The translations under genes were made by a program, and so were the position numbers. The notes beneath the pieces are model-generated. The model was not told where the DNA came from. It did not search any database and saw only the letters and a program-made list of their open reading frames with translations. From a virus, in IMG/VR virus record IMGVR_UViG_3300020478_000019, positions 1-41,451 of that record: 41,451 nucleotides of DNA; one strand, given 5' to 3'. Positions 2,731 through 9,482 of the stretch are shown here, one piece after another; position 1 is the first letter of the stretch, and each line of letters begins with the position of its first letter.

Positions 2731-3666
2731 ATGTCCAATAGAAATTCTAGACTTGGTACATTAAAAGCCAATCCTTATAATAGTAATGTAGAGTCTCGCG
2801 AGCAAACTACTGGTGCGAGGGATTCTAATCTATCGTCTATTTTTTATGATAGAGATGGTGGTCAAGTAATTGGTCCTACTTTTCAGGATGCATTAGGTTC
2901 TCCATCTTTAACTAATCAGTATAAGGTTTCATTGATGTTAGCCAATTCACCTAATGGTGATCCTAATAAGAGTTTAGATACTTGGCTTTCAACTTCTGGT
3001 ATTTTTAATGGTACTGGTCAAGGTGCATTTAGATTTGATTTCTTGGCACATGAAGCTCAGTTGCCTGGAATGAGGATGGAAGTCCAAGATGTTGCAGGTG
3101 ATAGACAAGGTATTACAGAGAGATTTGCTACACTTAGACAGTATAATGATGTAAAATTATCTTTTTACGTTTCATCTGATTATCAGGTCTTGAGATTGTT
3201 TCAAGAGTGGGTTGGTTTTATGAATCCTTTGTATCAGGATGATGGTACTTTTGCTCAAGGTAGTCCAGGCGGATATCCTTCAGCAACAGATTCTTCTGGT
3301 TTTCATAGATTGAGATATCCAAATACATATAAGAAAGATATAGCTATAACTAAGTTTGAACGAGGTGAAGGTTCTCGTCCACTTACTTATACTCTTATCA
3401 ATGCTTTCCCAACAGAAATTGATACCGTAGATTTGACTTACGAAGCAGGAATGGTTGTTAATACTGGAATTACATTTTCTTATGATAGGTACGTCATAAC
3501 TCATGGTGATGCACCAACTAGTAGTGATAAGATTCAAGATACTCCTCAAAATATAAGTAATCCTCCTCAAAGAAAACCACAATCAAGGGTAACAAAAGCT
3601 ATAAACCAATATCTTGATTTTTGGGGATGGAATGGTCAAGGTAAAAACACTCCTAGTGGCTTTTAA
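2731..3666 (+). CDS. 54: Baseplate tail-tube initiator gp54
   Basis: 311 residues (T4 gp54 is about 320). After a disordered, Asn/Ser-rich start, the protein shows a tail-tube-like fold: NQYKVSLMLA, then FRFDFLAHEAQLPGMRMEV, FATLRQYNDVKLSFYVSSDYQVLRLFQEWVGFMNPLY, then KDIAITKFER and TYTLINAFPTEI. This mirrors the gp19/gp48/gp54 family, in which gp54 forms the ring on the baseplate from which the tube polymerises. It is divergent from gp4 with a 27-bp gap, and no Shine-Dalgarno and no obvious plus-strand CTAAATA box lie in that gap. The C-terminal 45 residues are Pro/Gln/Asn rich and probably flexible. Confidence 0.8.
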   Translation: MSNRNSRLGTLKANPYNSNVESREQTTGARDSNLSSIFYDRDGGQVIGPTFQDALGSPSLTNQYKVSLMLANSPNGDPNKSLDTWLSTSGIFNGTGQGAFRFDFLAHEAQLPGMRMEVQDVAGDRQGITERFATLRQYNDVKLSFYVSSDYQVLRLFQEWVGFMNPLYQDDGTFAQGSPGGYPSATDSSGFHRLRYPNTYKKDIAITKFERGEGSRPLTYTLINAFPTEIDTVDLTYEAGMVVNTGITFSYDRYVITHGDAPTSSDKIQDTPQNISNPPQRKPQSRVTKAINQYLDFWGWNGQGKNTPSGF

Positions 3667-3707: not shown

Positions 3708-4424
3708 ATGCCGTTACCTACGATTACTACAGCTGAGTATGAATTAAAATTACCATCCACAGGTAAACCAGTTAAGTATAGACCATTCCTTGTAAGAGAG
3801 GAGAAAATTCTTATTCTTTCTCTTGAAGGACAGAATCAGAAAGATATATCAAGAGCTGTTAAACAAGTTTTAAAAGATTGTGTTTTAACAAAGGGTATTA
3901 AGATAGATACACTTCCATCTTTTGATATTGAATATTTGTTTTTAAATATTCGTGGAAAATCTGTTGGAGAATCAATAGATCTTATTGTCACATGTGGAGA
4001 CGATGGTAAGACAACAGTTCCCGTGACTGTTGATATTGATGATATTCAAATCATTAAAGATGATAGTCATAGTCAAGATATTGAATTGGCTGATGGATAT
4101 AAAGTGAGGATGAAATATCCCTCATTAAGTCAATTTATTGATCAAAATTTTGTTGATGGTGATGATGAAGTAGAGAAGGCTTTCACTATGATTGCTGAAT
4201 CTATTGAAATGGTTTATAACGATTCTGATGTATTTGCAGCTTCTGATTGCACTAAGAAGGAATTAAAAGAATGGGTTGAATCTCTAACTTCTGAACAGTT
4301 CAAGAAGATTGAGAACTTCTTTGAAACAATGCCTAAGTTATCTCATACTATTGAGGTTACTAATCCAAAGACTAAGAAGAAGAATACTATAGTATTAGAG
4401 GGGCTAACGGATTTTTTCGCTTAA
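3708..4424 (+). CDS. 26: Baseplate hub assembly protein gp26 (T4_baseplate family); 0-frame part of a putative frameshift pair
   Basis: 238 residues with the look of the T4 gp26 family (PF12322; T4 gp26 is 208): MPLPTITTAEYELKLPSTGKPVKYRPFLVREEKILILSLE at the start, a middle beta region ending VDIDDIQIIKD, then DGYKVRMKYPSLSQF and a helical C-terminus. In T4, gp26 acts in hub assembly and is not abundant in the finished particle. The start ATG is preceded by AATATT without a Shine-Dalgarno. The last codons are GAT TTT TTC GCT TAA, which form a perfect T TTT TTC slippery heptamer. A strong hairpin follows, so a fraction of ribosomes may enter the next ORF in the -1 frame and make a roughly 302-residue fusion. 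Confidence 0.8.
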   Translation: MPLPTITTAEYELKLPSTGKPVKYRPFLVREEKILILSLEGQNQKDISRAVKQVLKDCVLTKGIKIDTLPSFDIEYLFLNIRGKSVGESIDLIVTCGDDGKTTVPVTVDIDDIQIIKDDSHSQDIELADGYKVRMKYPSLSQFIDQNFVDGDDEVEKAFTMIAESIEMVYNDSDVFAASDCTKKELKEWVESLTSEQFKKIENFFETMPKLSHTIEVTNPKTKKKNTIVLEGLTDFFA

Positions 4425-4455
4425 GTATGTCTCATATTGATCTTGAGACATACTT
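4412..4455 (+). promoter_or_regulatory. Programmed -1 ribosomal frameshift signal
   Basis: Slippery heptamer T TTT TTC (4412-4418) sits in the zero frame of gp26, two codons before its TAA. Four bases downstream begins a perfect 12-bp stem: AAGTATGTCTCA (4423-4434), a 9-base loop, and TGAGACATACTT (4444-4455). A -1 slip continues as CGC TTA AGT ATG straight into the next ORF with no stop. The hairpin also buries that ORF's ATG (4427). All three classic elements of -1 frameshifting are present: the X XXY YYZ heptamer, the spacer and the structure. Confidence 0.85.
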
Positions 4456-4615
4456 CAGAATCAATTTCGCTCTCATGCAGTACCATAAATATTCATTAAC
4501 TGAAATAGAAAATATGTGCCCTTGGGAAAGGGATATCTATGTTGGGTTACTTAAACTCCATATTGAAGAAGAGAATCTGAAAGCACAACAAAGAGCAGCA
4601 CAACAGAACGCATAA
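4427..4615 (+). CDS. 51: gp51-like hub assembly ORF, probably expressed as the -1 frameshift extension of gp26
   Basis: 62 residues (MSHIDLETYF ... CPWERDIYVGLLKLHIEEENLKAQQRAAQQNA). The CPWERDIYVxLL helix resembles the short 'T' part of tail-assembly chaperones and the short gp51-type proteins annotated in marine T4-like phages; T4 gp51 itself is much longer (about 249). Its ATG has no Shine-Dalgarno and lies inside the 5' arm of a 12-bp hairpin, so independent initiation looks poor. In the -1 frame the preceding codons CGC TTA AGT link it without interruption to gp26. The next gene, starting 1 base after the stop, is a tape-measure candidate, the standard position for a G/GT chaperone pair. 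Confidence 0.65.
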   Translation: MSHIDLETYFRINFALMQYHKYSLTEIENMCPWERDIYVGLLKLHIEEENLKAQQRAAQQNA

Positions 4616-6358
4616 ATGGCAAAACTTAAAGCCTTATTCAAATCTGCAGGTAAAGCCACCAAAGGTGTACGTCGTGGTGCAGCTCGTAAAGCAATAAAAG
4701 CTAAAAAATTATTCGGGGTAAAAGGTAAGCAAAAAGGTCTTGCAAGAGCAGCTGGTGGACTTTTAGGTAAGTCTCAGGTAAAGGGTAAGAATGTTCTAGC
4801 AGGTACAGCGAAAGCAATCACAGATATTAGAACAGGTGAACAACGTTCTGGAATTACGAAGGTTAATAGACTTGTAGAGACTAAGGTTAATAATCTTCTA
4901 CCAAAATTAACGAATAGAATAGAGAATCAGGTTAATACTTTTGATCCTAATGCTATGTTAGGAAAGATATTTGATGGTGGTTTAGGTAAATTACAAGGAT
5001 TCGGTCAGAGTTTAGATGGTCTTAGGGGATCAATGGCTGAGTCATTGGGATTCCTTGGTAAGTCTAAAGGATTGATAGAAGATTTGATCAATAAACTTGC
5101 TTCTGGTAAGTTTGGTCAAAGAAGGGGTGGTGGACTTGTAGGTAATCTATTGAAAGGTGCTGCAGCCTTAGGTGTTGTTGCATTGGGTAGTAAACTTCTT
5201 GCTCCTGCTGCAGTCATAGGTGGCGCTGCCATGCTTGGCAAGAAATTATGGGGTGGTATTACTGGTCTATTCAAGAGAAAGAAGAAGAAAAAGGAAGTAC
5301 AACAGTTACCTGGCGTATTAGATAAGAATCAAGCAAGAAAGTTCAACGAGAGTTTAAAGAACTTTGAGGTTGGTCTTGATAGGATGGGTGGTGAACCAAC
5401 AGATGCAGAAGGTCTTCAGGAGAAAGAAGAATCACCAGGCCAAGAACAGGTAAAAGCTGAAAAAGAGAAAATAGAGATTCCTGAAGAATTTAAAGATAAG
5501 TATGAAATAACTTTTCAATATAGGGATGGAAGATATAGGTTTATTAACTATAAAGAGAAAGGATTACCAGAGGGTCAATCTTATAAAGGTTCGATCCTTA
5601 TGGAAGGCGATACTAAAGCTGACCAGAGTACATGGGAACTTATTTACAAGAAAGAAAAAGCAAGAGAAATACGTGAAAGACCAAAAGGCACTAAAAGATT
5701 TCTTGCTGGTATAGGTGATGCATTAACAGGTAATATATTTGATTTTGATAAACGTGGGAACGTTGTAGACGGTCTCAAGAGAGGTTTAAAGGGATTTAAA
5801 GGATCTAAGGGTACTGAAGGTACAAAGGGTGCCAGAGGTCATCAGGGACCACAGGGGATAATGAGACATGCGTTAGGCATGGCTGATCTAGCAACGGGTA
5901 ATATATTTGATTTTGATAAACGTGGAAATCTTCTTGATGGTGCAAAAAGAACAGGTGAGACATTAAAAGAAAAGACAAAGGGATTAACGAAGAAACCAAA
6001 GGGATTCATGAGGTTCTTAAAAGGAGCTATGGATGCCGTTACTGGTGATGCATTTGATTTTGATGGTCGTGGTAGTATGCTTGATGGTGCAAAGAGGATC
6101 TTAGATAAGAATAAGGATGATGCAACTGCAGTATCTCAACCTGCAGTACCACCACCAACACAAGAAGCGGGAGGAAATCAACAGGTTATTCCTATTCAAT
6201 TGGATGGTATGGCTGCAACTCCTCCAAATCAAGGACCAAGACCAGCACCTACTGATGTTAAAACATCTAATAAGGTTCCTTTCTTGATAGCTATGGATAT
6301 CAGTAATATCCATGTTCCATATTCTAGATCCATTTTCAATATTGTTGATGCATCATGA
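4616..6358 (+). CDS. Tail-lumen/tape-measure-like structural protein with repeats and collagen-like stretch
   Basis: 580 residues, close to the length of T4 gp29 (590), the tape measure. The N-terminal 60 residues are very rich in Lys/Arg/Ala (AGKATKGVRRGAARKAIKAKK). A hydrophobic Ala/Gly segment at about 178-212 (GAAALGVVALGSKLLAPAA) is typical of tape measures that later reach the membrane. Three repeats follow near residues 366, 425 and 473, each built on TGNIFDFDKRGNxxDGxKR; the first two share an exact 29-base DNA repeat (5729-5757 and 5897-5925). Between repeats 1 and 2, at about 390-414, is a collagen-like Gly-x-y run (GSKGTEGTKGARGHQGPQG). It directly follows the chaperone-type ORFs and ends in an ATGA overlap with the next gene. 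Tape-measure function is inferred from position and composition. Confidence 0.6.
   Translation: MAKLKALFKSAGKATKGVRRGAARKAIKAKKLFGVKGKQKGLARAAGGLLGKSQVKGKNVLAGTAKAITDIRTGEQRSGITKVNRLVETKVNNLLPKLTNRIENQVNTFDPNAMLGKIFDGGLGKLQGFGQSLDGLRGSMAESLGFLGKSKGLIEDLINKLASGKFGQRRGGGLVGNLLKGAAALGVVALGSKLLAPAAVIGGAAMLGKKLWGGITGLFKRKKKKKEVQQLPGVLDKNQARKFNESLKNFEVGLDRMGGEPTDAEGLQEKEESPGQEQVKAEKEKIEIPEEFKDKYEITFQYRDGRYRFINYKEKGLPEGQSYKGSILMEGDTKADQSTWELIYKKEKAREIRERPKGTKRFLAGIGDALTGNIFDFDKRGNVVDGLKRGLKGFKGSKGTEGTKGARGHQGPQGIMRHALGMADLATGNIFDFDKRGNLLDGAKRTGETLKEKTKGLTKKPKGFMRFLKGAMDAVTGDAFDFDGRGSMLDGAKRILDKNKDDATAVSQPAVPPPTQEAGGNQQVIPIQLDGMAATPPNQGPRPAPTDVKTSNKVPFLIAMDISNIHVPYSRSIFNIVDAS
5729..5925 (+). repeat. 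Direct repeat inside the tape-measure-like gene
   Basis: An exact 29-base sequence encoding GNIFDFDKRG occurs at 5729-5757 and again at 5897-5925, a 168-base (56-codon) period. A diverged third copy starts near 6044. The repeat is in frame and so reflects duplication of a protein module. Confidence 0.85.
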
Positions 6359-8037
6359 AGCCAACTTTAGCAACACTTGCAGTTAAAAAGAAGGCTAGTA
6401 AGGCAGTTGATGTTGCCGAAAATAGCATGGGAGCTTTTACTAGAGTAATAAAGCAAAATGCTTCTGGATTAGAGGGTGGAGTTCCTAGTGATTCTAAGAT
6501 TAAGAAGGCTGAGAAATTTGTAAAAGGTATTGGTGGAAAGAGAGGTGGATTTCCTGGCGTAGGTATTTTGGGAACTGCATTGATGTTCCCAGTTGTTCTT
6601 GGAGCAATGATGCAGGGTAGTGCTACTGCAACTCCTGATGGTGTACTGAATGAACAGTATGGTGGTGATGAACAAGCAATGAATAAAGATCTTCAAGCAG
6701 ATAAGAGATTACGGGAAGAAGGTCTTGAAAAGATAGAAGAGACGGGTGATGATAAGAAAGAATGGGATCAAAATGCAGGAAAAGAGTTACAGGAGATGCC
6801 TCAGGAGAGGACAGAACCTAGTACAGAGGATCAACAGGAACAAAAGGAAGAAGTAGAAGAGGAAGTAGAAGAAATTGAGGCAAGTGAGGTAGAAGCTAGT
6901 AAAGATGAGATTGATGTTGATAAGTTTAAGTCTCTTACTGATAGATTTAAGAATATAACTGAACAGGGATCTGTTGGTACTCCAAAATCAAAAGGGTTCT
7001 TTGGAAAGGCTGCTGATACTGTTAAAGAAGGTGCTGCTAATTTTGTTAAGAACGCTACATTTGGTCTTTTAGATTTTACTAAGAAGAAACCAGATGTTAA
7101 AAAGATGGGACAGGAAGTTGTACAACCTACACAACACTTCTTCCTTCCAGCTAAGACTGAGAAAGAATCTGAGGATGGTACTAAGGTTAAACCCAAGGAA
7201 AAATTAATGGAGAAAGAACCTCCAAAGTTACCACCTTTACCTGGCGAAATGGATACTGAGGGTGAAGATTTTGCTGCTTTGACTGCTGTTTCTGCTTTAG
7301 AAGGTGGAGATGATCAATCAAGAGCAGATGTTGCACAATCAATCTATAATAGACAGGCTGATGGTACGTATGGAGATTCTATTAAAGATGTAGTTACTGC
7401 TGATGGTCAGTATCAACCTGCATATAAAGATCCTACTGTATCCAGTGGACCTGGCACTGAGACTGCTCAAGAGTGGAAGGATATTAAAGATAGAGATAGT
7501 GCTGTGAAAGCCATGGTTTCTTACTATGAGAAGAGGGATCAGAGAGTAACTAAGAAACAAATGGAGGAATTATATGATAAAACTGCTGCAGCATTACAGA
7601 ATCCAGAAAATCAAGAGTCAGCAGCTGAACATGTTGAAGGAAGGACAGAGTTTCTTGGTGGTGAAGTAGAAGGTGATGATGTAGTTGATAGAGGTGGTAT
7701 AGAAGATAATGCTTTCTTCCAAGAATATGGATCTGGAGAACAAATGGAAAGAGGAGCAGTTGAGAATCCTTTATTAAGGAAGAGTGAGATGCGATCTTCT
7801 ACAGATGGTAGTAGTTCTACTTCAGTTCCTCCAGAACAATATGCTTCTTATGAACAACCTACTCCTATTATAAGTAACACTACATATGTTGTTCAGATGC
7901 CTACACCAGCAGCTAATAATAAACCAGTTCGTGCTATGGCTGCTCCTGAAGAAGGTGGTGGAGCAATGATTGTTCCTATAAATGATCCTAATACTATAGT
8001 ATCAACTCTTACTACAATAAGTCTAAGTGCATCCTAA
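6355..8037 (+). CDS. Tail/hub structural protein with SleB-like cell-wall hydrolase domain
   Basis: 560 residues starting with ATGA overlap. It has a basic N-terminus, a hydrophobic stretch at about 70-82 (GVGILGTALMFPVVLGAMM) and a long Glu-rich charged region (about 110-200). A compact domain near 303-410 contains SALEGGDDQ, ADVAQSIYNRQ and VVTADGQYQP. That order (acidic catalytic-type Glu near 316, Asn-Arg near 332, Gly-Gln-Tyr/Phe near 351) is the signature of the SleB/Hydrolase_2 cell-wall hydrolase family. A low-complexity tail follows. In T4 the tail lysozyme is part of gp5; here gp5 shows no such domain, so this protein may supply the wall-cutting activity during infection. That role is inference. 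Confidence 0.5.
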   Translation: MKPTLATLAVKKKASKAVDVAENSMGAFTRVIKQNASGLEGGVPSDSKIKKAEKFVKGIGGKRGGFPGVGILGTALMFPVVLGAMMQGSATATPDGVLNEQYGGDEQAMNKDLQADKRLREEGLEKIEETGDDKKEWDQNAGKELQEMPQERTEPSTEDQQEQKEEVEEEVEEIEASEVEASKDEIDVDKFKSLTDRFKNITEQGSVGTPKSKGFFGKAADTVKEGAANFVKNATFGLLDFTKKKPDVKKMGQEVVQPTQHFFLPAKTEKESEDGTKVKPKEKLMEKEPPKLPPLPGEMDTEGEDFAALTAVSALEGGDDQSRADVAQSIYNRQADGTYGDSIKDVVTADGQYQPAYKDPTVSSGPGTETAQEWKDIKDRDSAVKAMVSYYEKRDQRVTKKQMEELYDKTAAALQNPENQESAAEHVEGRTEFLGGEVEGDDVVDRGGIEDNAFFQEYGSGEQMERGAVENPLLRKSEMRSSTDGSSSTSVPPEQYASYEQPTPIISNTTYVVQMPTPAANNKPVRAMAAPEEGGGAMIVPINDPNTIVSTLTTISLSAS

Positions 8038-9482
8038 TGTCATCACTACAGAAGATAGAAATTAAAAAGGCAACTATAACTCCAGAAGCAGGGAGTTTTG
8101 AGGAGCCTAGCAACCCTCCTTTAGGTTATCGTGCTACTCGACATTTAGGTGATAAGAGACTTGTTGGAGAGAATATTACTCCTCATATTGTGCAAGTGGA
8201 TTACTTTGAGGATATATTATCCCCAGCTGTAACTTGTTATCTTAAAATATCTAATACTACTAATTTGTATAATAGAGTTCCAATAAGAGGATATGAAAGA
8301 GTTGATCTTACTATTGGTACTACTAATGGAGATTTTCAATTTGATGATGGTGCTGATGGTAGAGATGAGTGTCCTTTTTATGTTATAGGTATTCAGGAGT
8401 TAATGCAGGTTGAAGGACAAGAGACTTTTACTTTGGTTTTGAGTACATTAGAAAATTTAAGAAATGAGACTTCTAGGTGTCAGAGAAGATATGAAAGACT
8501 ACCAATAAGTTCTCATGTTCAAGATATATTGGAGAATACTCTTAAAGTACCAACTGAACGTATTGCTGAGGTAGAACCTAGTATTACTCCTTATGGTTTT
8601 ATTGGTAATAATAAGAAACCATTTCATATATGTACATGGTTAGCACCTAAAGCACAGCCAGGATCAGAAGGAACGTCTGGTACTTCTGGATCAGGTGGTT
8701 TGGCTGAAGCAAAAGGTACTTCTGGATTCTTCTTCTATGAAAATTATGATGGATACCACTTTAGATCAGTGGATAGCATGATTAAATCAACAGCAGAAGC
8801 AGCAAATCCTCTTGCAATGGCAAATAGGGCATTAGGAAGAGGAAATTATGTTCCTACTTATACTGCTACTTCTATGATTTCTAGAGATGAAGGTAGTGGA
8901 GAGAATGATAGACAAATTATCCATCATTATATGGATAAGAACACAAATGTACAAAAGAATTTGAGAGTTGGATTATACTCTAATTTGACATATTTTTATA
9001 ATCCATTAACATGGCAGATGGATGCTGTTAAGTATAATCTTAAGGCAGAATCTGAAGGTAATGTCAAAACTTTAGGTGATAAAATTCCAATACCTGAAGG
9101 TGATATCACAACATTTGCCTCAAGATTATTAGTTAGAATAGGTGACACAGGAATGTGGGATCCTTCTTTAGTTGAGGAACAAGGCGAAGTGCCTGGATCT
9201 GGTAGGGATAATTCTGATATGGCTAAGGCCTTTTCTAGATATACACTCCTCTTCACTCAGTCCCTAAATATTGTGATACCATGTGATGTCAAGTTGCGTG
9301 CTGGTCAGGTTATTAAGGTTGAATTACCTGTAGTCGGACCAACTGAAGGTGATAATAAAGAAATAGATCAAGAATCTAGTGGTTATTATCTAATTCGTAG
9401 TTTAAGACATCATTTTGAAATAGCTGACGGTAGGAATACTACCTCATTAAATCTCGTAAGAGATTCATACGGGCAAACTTAA
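8037..9482 (+). CDS. 27: Baseplate hub subunit gp27
   Basis: 481 residues (T4 gp27 about 391). The first 170 residues form a tube-like beta domain: ITPHIVQVDYFEDILSPAVTCYLKISNT, RVPIRGYERVDLTI, FYVIGIQELMQVEGQETFTLVLST. The central NKKPFHICTWLAPKA and SGFFFYENYDGYHFRSVDSMI and the late VIPCDVKLRAGQVIKVELP with SGYYLIRSLRHHFE match hub-protein layout (gp27/VgrG/gpD type). gp27 trimers form the central channel on which gp5 sits. A Gly/Ser/Thr insert (EGTSGTSGSGG, near residue 210) looks like a surface loop. It starts in TAATG overlap with the previous stop. The gene order gp27, small ORF, gp5 supports the call. Confidence 0.8.
   Translation: MSSLQKIEIKKATITPEAGSFEEPSNPPLGYRATRHLGDKRLVGENITPHIVQVDYFEDILSPAVTCYLKISNTTNLYNRVPIRGYERVDLTIGTTNGDFQFDDGADGRDECPFYVIGIQELMQVEGQETFTLVLSTLENLRNETSRCQRRYERLPISSHVQDILENTLKVPTERIAEVEPSITPYGFIGNNKKPFHICTWLAPKAQPGSEGTSGTSGSGGLAEAKGTSGFFFYENYDGYHFRSVDSMIKSTAEAANPLAMANRALGRGNYVPTYTATSMISRDEGSGENDRQIIHHYMDKNTNVQKNLRVGLYSNLTYFYNPLTWQMDAVKYNLKAESEGNVKTLGDKIPIPEGDITTFASRLLVRIGDTGMWDPSLVEEQGEVPGSGRDNSDMAKAFSRYTLLFTQSLNIVIPCDVKLRAGQVIKVELPVVGPTEGDNKEIDQESSGYYLIRSLRHHFEIADGRNTTSLNLVRDSYGQT

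Follow-up and report, generated by a model that had tools for sequence, protein, structure and literature searches.

Tail-assembly chaperones (TACs) of phages such as lambda (G/GT) and HK97 (gp13/gp14) are made as a short form and a −1 extended form between the tail tube and tape-measure genes. For the T4-like phages, Vladimirov, Gautam and Davidson are reported, in Virology 2022, 566:9-15, to have identified the TAC genes, gp26 being TAC-N and gp51 the long form (doi 10.1016/j.virol.2021.11.003), and their abstract is said to describe frameshifting as conserved in several T4-like groups, T4 itself using genes 26 and 51. The phage Adele paper cites that study for poly-T slippery sites in T4-like TAC-N genes (PMC12846349), and the PRFect paper cites it for T4-like phages that carry separate short and long TAC genes with no frameshifting (PMC10885494). 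Our search of the open-access literature found nothing direct on gp26/gp51 frameshifting. The genes described here belong to the same family as those of Vladimirov et al., and a first-pass annotation of this sequence had known of no report of frameshifting between gp26 and gp51. That claim to novelty falls, because the 2022 study reportedly treated both T4-like TAC genes and frameshifting. The mechanism is already known for T4-like chaperones, and the present locus is a well-supported further case.

The window, that is, the whole stretch of DNA analyzed, is a 41-kb virus record (41,451 nucleotides); judged by gp26, its closest relative among deposited phages is S-SSM7, which infects Synechococcus (72.7%). 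The 3′ end of its gp26 ORF reads GAT TTT TTC GCT TAA, and the junction between this ORF and the gp51-like ORF that follows comprises these features:

3708–4424, plus strand: gp26-like gene, predicted short chaperone (TAC-N), 238 aa; PF12322 T4_baseplate 5.1e-74, phrog_150 2.2e-78
4398–4403, plus strand: internal Shine-Dalgarno-like GAGGGG, 8 nt 5′ of the heptamer
4412–4418, plus strand: slippery heptamer T TTT TTC in the gp26 register, with a single codon (GCT) before the stop
4418–4615, plus strand: −1 frame extension (TAC-C), an open frame with its stop at 4613–4615, predicted to complete the 302-aa TAC-NC
4422–4424, plus strand: zero-frame stop TAA of gp26; relatives use all three of TAA, TAG and TGA
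4423–4455, plus strand: stem-loop with a 12-bp stem and a 9-nt loop, 4 nt 3′ of the heptamer, −17.0 kcal/mol; probable stimulator
4427–4429, plus strand: in-frame ATG, the annotated gp51 start in relatives; ATG in 67 of 89 junctions, CTN, ATT or TTA in 22 of 89

The spacer GCTT (4419–4422) leads from the heptamer to the stem, whose arms AAGTATGTCTCA (4423–4434) and TGAGACATACTT (4444–4455) are perfectly complementary over 12 bp and enclose the 9-nt loop at 4435–4443. The −1 frame is open from about position 4376 to its stop, and the ATG at 4427 lies within that frame. Direct reading of the sequence bears out the elements listed in the first-pass annotation, namely the heptamer, the four-base spacer, the hairpin with its 12-bp stem and nine-base loop and the open −1 frame. 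The fusion that it put at about 302 residues has a computed length of exactly 302, and its predicted junction-spanning peptide is LTDFFRLSMSHIDLETYFR. The locus thus combines a short ORF that closes soon after an in-register heptamer with a −1 ORF that is open through a downstream domain, the arrangement by which a −1 frameshifted TAC gene is recognized.

Judged from comparative sequence data, it is very likely that a programmed −1 frameshift near the end of gene 26 yields a short and a long TAC that escort the tape measure. Most ribosomes translating gene 26 would stop at 4422 and make the 238-residue TAC-N. A smaller share, held up by the stem-loop at U UUU UUC and pulled by the Shine-Dalgarno-like GAGGGG inside the gene, would slip back one base with both tRNA-Phe and read on in the −1 frame as far as 4615. 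The resulting 302-residue long chaperone (TAC-NC) would carry an added C-terminal domain, the counterpart of the last part of T4 gp51. While the tail or the baseplate hub is being assembled, both forms would accompany the tape-measure protein. What is observed is a set of sequence elements, their conservation, a constraint on the −1 frame, homology between the fusion and gp51 and a predicted chaperone fold; from these we infer the occurrence and efficiency of slippage, the roles of the Shine-Dalgarno-like element and hairpin and the chaperone function.

We gathered junctions from IMG/VR and from annotated phage genomes, 108 of them distinct. As the first-pass annotation had proposed, homologous junctions were aligned, and the heptamer proved to be conserved, lying in register near the gp26 stop as T TTT TTY or T TTT TTG in 106 of the 108, although these rows are related and such counts are not numbers of independent events. 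Protein identity between the heptamer-bearing junctions and the window ranges from ~26 to 79%, and these junctions include Kyanoviridae, HTVC008M, Sinorhizobium phiM12, Cronobacter S13, Aeromonas Ah1 and Stenotrophomonas Mendera. The two junctions without it are those of Vibrio D504 (L027) and of a Klebsiella T4-type phage, in which gp26 and gp51 are separate genes. Every heptamer-bearing junction except that of S-SCSM1 has a −1 frame that stays open for 164 nt or more past the stop; a stop between the two frames in most relatives, which the first-pass annotation had named as evidence against frameshifting, is not seen. In S-SCSM1 (L116, MK867354.2, ~2714–2740), the gp26 stop is followed by an insertion of 11 nt that closes the −1 frame, and the gp51 domain lies in the +1 (or −2) frame as a result. 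We found no counterpart of this insertion in IMG/VR, and it is possibly a sequencing error, decay or a different form of recoding.

Codon choice at the site is correspondingly narrow. The Phe-Phe pair is written TTT TTC in 94 junctions and TTT TTT in 11, with TTT TTG in one, and 3878 pairwise comparisons among 99 sequences revealed no synonymous change at either heptamer Phe codon. Elsewhere in the long ORFs of the loci collected, the T TTT TTY form accounts for only 30 of 338 Phe-Phe pairs (8.9%), whereas nearly all related junctions have it, a contrast that exceeds chance. The preceding codon is AGT, GAT, TCT, AAT, GCT or GGT, always xxT whichever of five amino acids (S, D, N, A or G) it specifies; because amino acids change beside a fixed T, selection on the heptamer appears to act at the nucleotide level. 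Pelagiphage-like contigs (L007–L019) have AGT TTT TTT TAA or TAG at the site, and their first −1 frame ATG lies only in the middle of the conserved domain. We regard the comparative evidence for programmed −1 frameshifting as strong.

The elements flanking the heptamer also bear marks of selection, to differing degrees. A nearly invariant Glu-Gly-Leu is encoded 5′ of the heptamer, its Glu written GAG in 92 cases and GAA in 8, as compared with 731:1634 (31% GAG) elsewhere in gp26 and 129:308 (30% GAG) before Gly in long ORFs. This preference maintains a Shine-Dalgarno-like GAGGG at a fixed distance from the heptamer; in 92 of 106 junctions, 9 nt separate the end of AGGG from the heptamer. The window hairpin has a z-score of −4.7, that is, 4.7 s.d. 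below synonymous recodings that retain the −1 frame protein, and the mean for the hairpin region against synonymous recodings of the same −1 protein is −2.67 over 104 sequences. Pairing in the window stem exceeds that of slid controls and includes a compensated pair (columns 41/55, U-A in 52 sequences and A-U in 7); the A-U rows, which carry a GTG/GCA exchange, form one clade, so the compensatory change was probably a single event.

The stem itself is not universal. Another stem occupies the same place in L095, L070 and L118; the hairpin is absent or weak in the pelagiphage-like contigs, L024, the L072-type junctions and L080; and RNAalifold finds no consensus hairpin across all 89 cyanophage-type junctions, because lineages use different stems or none. 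The check proposed in the first-pass annotation, whether stem pairing is conserved with compensatory changes, thus gives pairing above controls and probably one compensatory event for the window stem, and no stem common to all relatives. Its suggestion that the hairpin hides the downstream ATG is unlikely to describe the main purpose of the structure, and we rejected it as such, given that relatives without an ATG there, such as L118, L095 and L070, retain strong hairpins. The 4-nt spacer is short by textbook standards, which counts against the frameshift reading. The three elements (Shine-Dalgarno-like sequence, heptamer and stem-loop) are present and apparently selected in many lineages, and the hairpin would act as a frequent but dispensable stimulator. 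A more elaborate scheme, in which a three-part signal has its hairpin rebuilt repeatedly from different codons or lost in some lineages, while the ATG adds a reinitiated free C-terminal domain and hence a third product per gene, is conceivable but unlikely.

We aligned the 89 cyanophage-type junctions without gaps. The first −1 codon after the slip is CGN, encoding Arg, in 87 of them, whereas the overlapping zero-frame codon encodes G in 40, A in 39, V in 6, S in 2 and E in 2; the second −1 codon specifies L, I or V in every one. Because the Arg is fixed in the −1 frame while the zero-frame residue varies, the −1 frame is constrained at the protein level upstream of the ATG. This constraint bears on termination–reinitiation, in which ribosomes would stop at 4422–4424 and restart at the ATG two bases on to make a separate 62-residue gp51, with the hairpin tuning the coupling. 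Such a scheme would suit an ATG that lies just 3′ of the stop, is kept in 67 of the junctions and opens a gp51 annotated as its own gene in database records. We nevertheless consider it very improbable as the sole explanation: it does not account for protein constraint that begins before the ATG or for an invariant heptamer, the same domain is fused to a gp26-like domain in T4 gp51, and 22 of the 89 junctions have CTN, ATT or TTA in place of ATG. Presence and absence of the ATG switch at least seven times on the gp26 tree, by well supported branches, and L024 and L056, of the lineage nearest the window's clade, are without it. With Leu or Ile as replacements and repeated switches, the position behaves as an internal hydrophobic residue and not as a start codon, and the ATG at 4427 is probably an internal Met codon. 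Reinitiation could still take place in addition to frameshifting.

The first-pass annotation had also pointed to a missing Shine-Dalgarno sequence at this ATG. The sequence is indeed missing, but we discarded its absence as evidence, as none of the eight genes inspected in the window genome, gp26 among them, has a clear one. In L029 and L032 (Stenotrophomonas phage Mendera and a Rhizobium phage), the heptamer occurs together with an overlapping TGATG stop–start, and frameshifting and coupled reinitiation could both be operating. Among deposited genomes, the gp51 domain is unannotated in S-PRM1, DSL-LC03 and S-WAM2 and cut to an internal ATG in HTVC008M (L023, L024, L118 and L025); it is missed or truncated because the frame is very short and often lacks a start codon of its own.

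Least probable of all is transcriptional slippage, in which RNA polymerase stuttering on the T6 homopolymer at the site would give some mRNAs an altered run that encodes the fusion in frame, as the longer T run of the pelagiphage-like group might favor, but a run of only six T closed by a C is short for slippage of the polymerase, and the run is kept in codon register with a Shine-Dalgarno-like element and often a hairpin, which are features of ribosomal slipping.

Programmed ribosomal frameshifting also agrees with the relationships among the proteins. The match of the window gp26 to PF12322 scores 249 bits against a curated cut-off of 24.5, which places it in the T4 gp26 family. The gp51-like ORF (4427–4612) matches phrog_634 (5.9e-27) and, in addition, positions 241–277 of phrog_150, which is the gp26 profile; this was an early sign of fusion between the two. 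T4 gp51 matches PF12322 over residues 1–201 and phrog_150 over 13–280 of 282, and in hhalign the frameshift-product profile aligned with T4/Klebsiella gp51 covers 15–288 at 97.1%. By these profile matches, T4 gp51 appears to be a gp26 paralogue carrying the C-terminal domain that is added by frameshifting in cyanophages. The first-pass annotation was right that T4 makes gp26 and gp51 as separate proteins and wrong to treat gp51 as the bare counterpart of the 62-residue ORF, as gp51 already includes a gp26-like domain; in the window, a gp26-like N-terminal domain and a gp51 C-terminal domain meet in one polypeptide only as the frameshift product.

We modeled the window gp26 with AlphaFold2 from an alignment made up only of the window and IMG/VR rows (pLDDT of 85). 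The top three structural matches of the model, over residues 1–96, are 2OB9 (Z of 7.8), 3FGX (7.8) and 3KLU (7.1), and the next scores 4.9. These three are HK97 gp13, Rbstp2171 and YqbN, all of them named tail assembly chaperones (PMC9603447). With Z values that are moderate, the model is supportive rather than conclusive of a TAC fold in residues 1–96.

The junction lies between two genes on the same strand and contains a candidate promoter:

2731–3666, plus strand: tail tube protein gene, directly upstream; PF23849 Phage_TTP_2 E 3.7e-14, phrog_45 tail tube 1.9e-32
4484–4491, plus strand: CATAAATA, late-promoter candidate of the T4 type lying within the TAC-C coding sequence; 87 junctions have it at the same offset
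4616–6358, plus strand: next gene downstream, a candidate for tape measure or tail core, identified only by its position

The tail tube gene occupies the position that V has before G in lambda. Our attempt to establish a tape-measure identity for the downstream gene by sequence failed: profile searches returned no convincing family match, and among the genomes compared, only S-SSM7 has a clear homologue of its product. HTVC008M and phiM12 each have a gene close by that carries a tape-measure annotation. In the product of the downstream gene (580 residues), a hydrophobic segment lies near residue 183, and there are also a short stretch resembling collagen and blocks similar to one another around 'GNIFDFDKRG'. 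The 560-residue product of 6355–8037 matches cell-wall hydrolase (PF07486) weakly, is hydrophobic in a segment near residue 68 and is possibly a tail-associated hydrolase. The nested promoter candidate matches NATAAATA, a late promoter of S-PM2 (PMC2984593). The His-Lys codons there are nearly fixed as CAT AAA, and the window has 7 copies of the core ATAAATA where ~20 would be expected. This candidate may drive the downstream tail gene.

Overall, the heptamer, the −1 frame constraint, the losses of the ATG, the gp51 homology and the chaperone fold support the proposal of a −1 frameshift that gives a G/GT-type chaperone pair, encoded just before a tape-measure candidate. The locus would accordingly be misannotated in deposited genomes of cyanophages and pelagiphages, which show gp51 as separate, shorten it to an internal ATG or miss it. 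The natural variants, a hundred or so and some of them lacking the hairpin, form a ready series for measuring the contribution of each stimulator.

Escherichia coli dnaX shares with the window an upstream Shine-Dalgarno-like element, an X XXY YYZ heptamer and a downstream stem-loop, but it is a different gene in a different host with the heptamer A AAA AAG, and at our locus the hairpin is not universal. Phage P2 E/E′, a frameshift reportedly described by Christie et al. 2002, likewise has a poly-T heptamer in a tail chaperone gene and differs in host group and in tail gene order. Residues 1–86 of the window gp26 superpose on HK97 gp13 (8% identity in the structural alignment); unlike the lambda and HK97 proteins, the window gp26 has an additional C-terminal half, and the lambda heptamer is GGGAAAG where the window has poly-T. 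In T4, gp26 is homologous to the short form and gp51, along almost all of its length, to the frameshift product, but the genes are separate and divergent (7803–8429 on the minus strand and 8480–9229 on the plus strand in L120), so that no frameshift can join them. This comparison supports T4 genes 26 and 51 and the single frameshifted cyanophage gene as two routes to the same pair of short and long chaperones.
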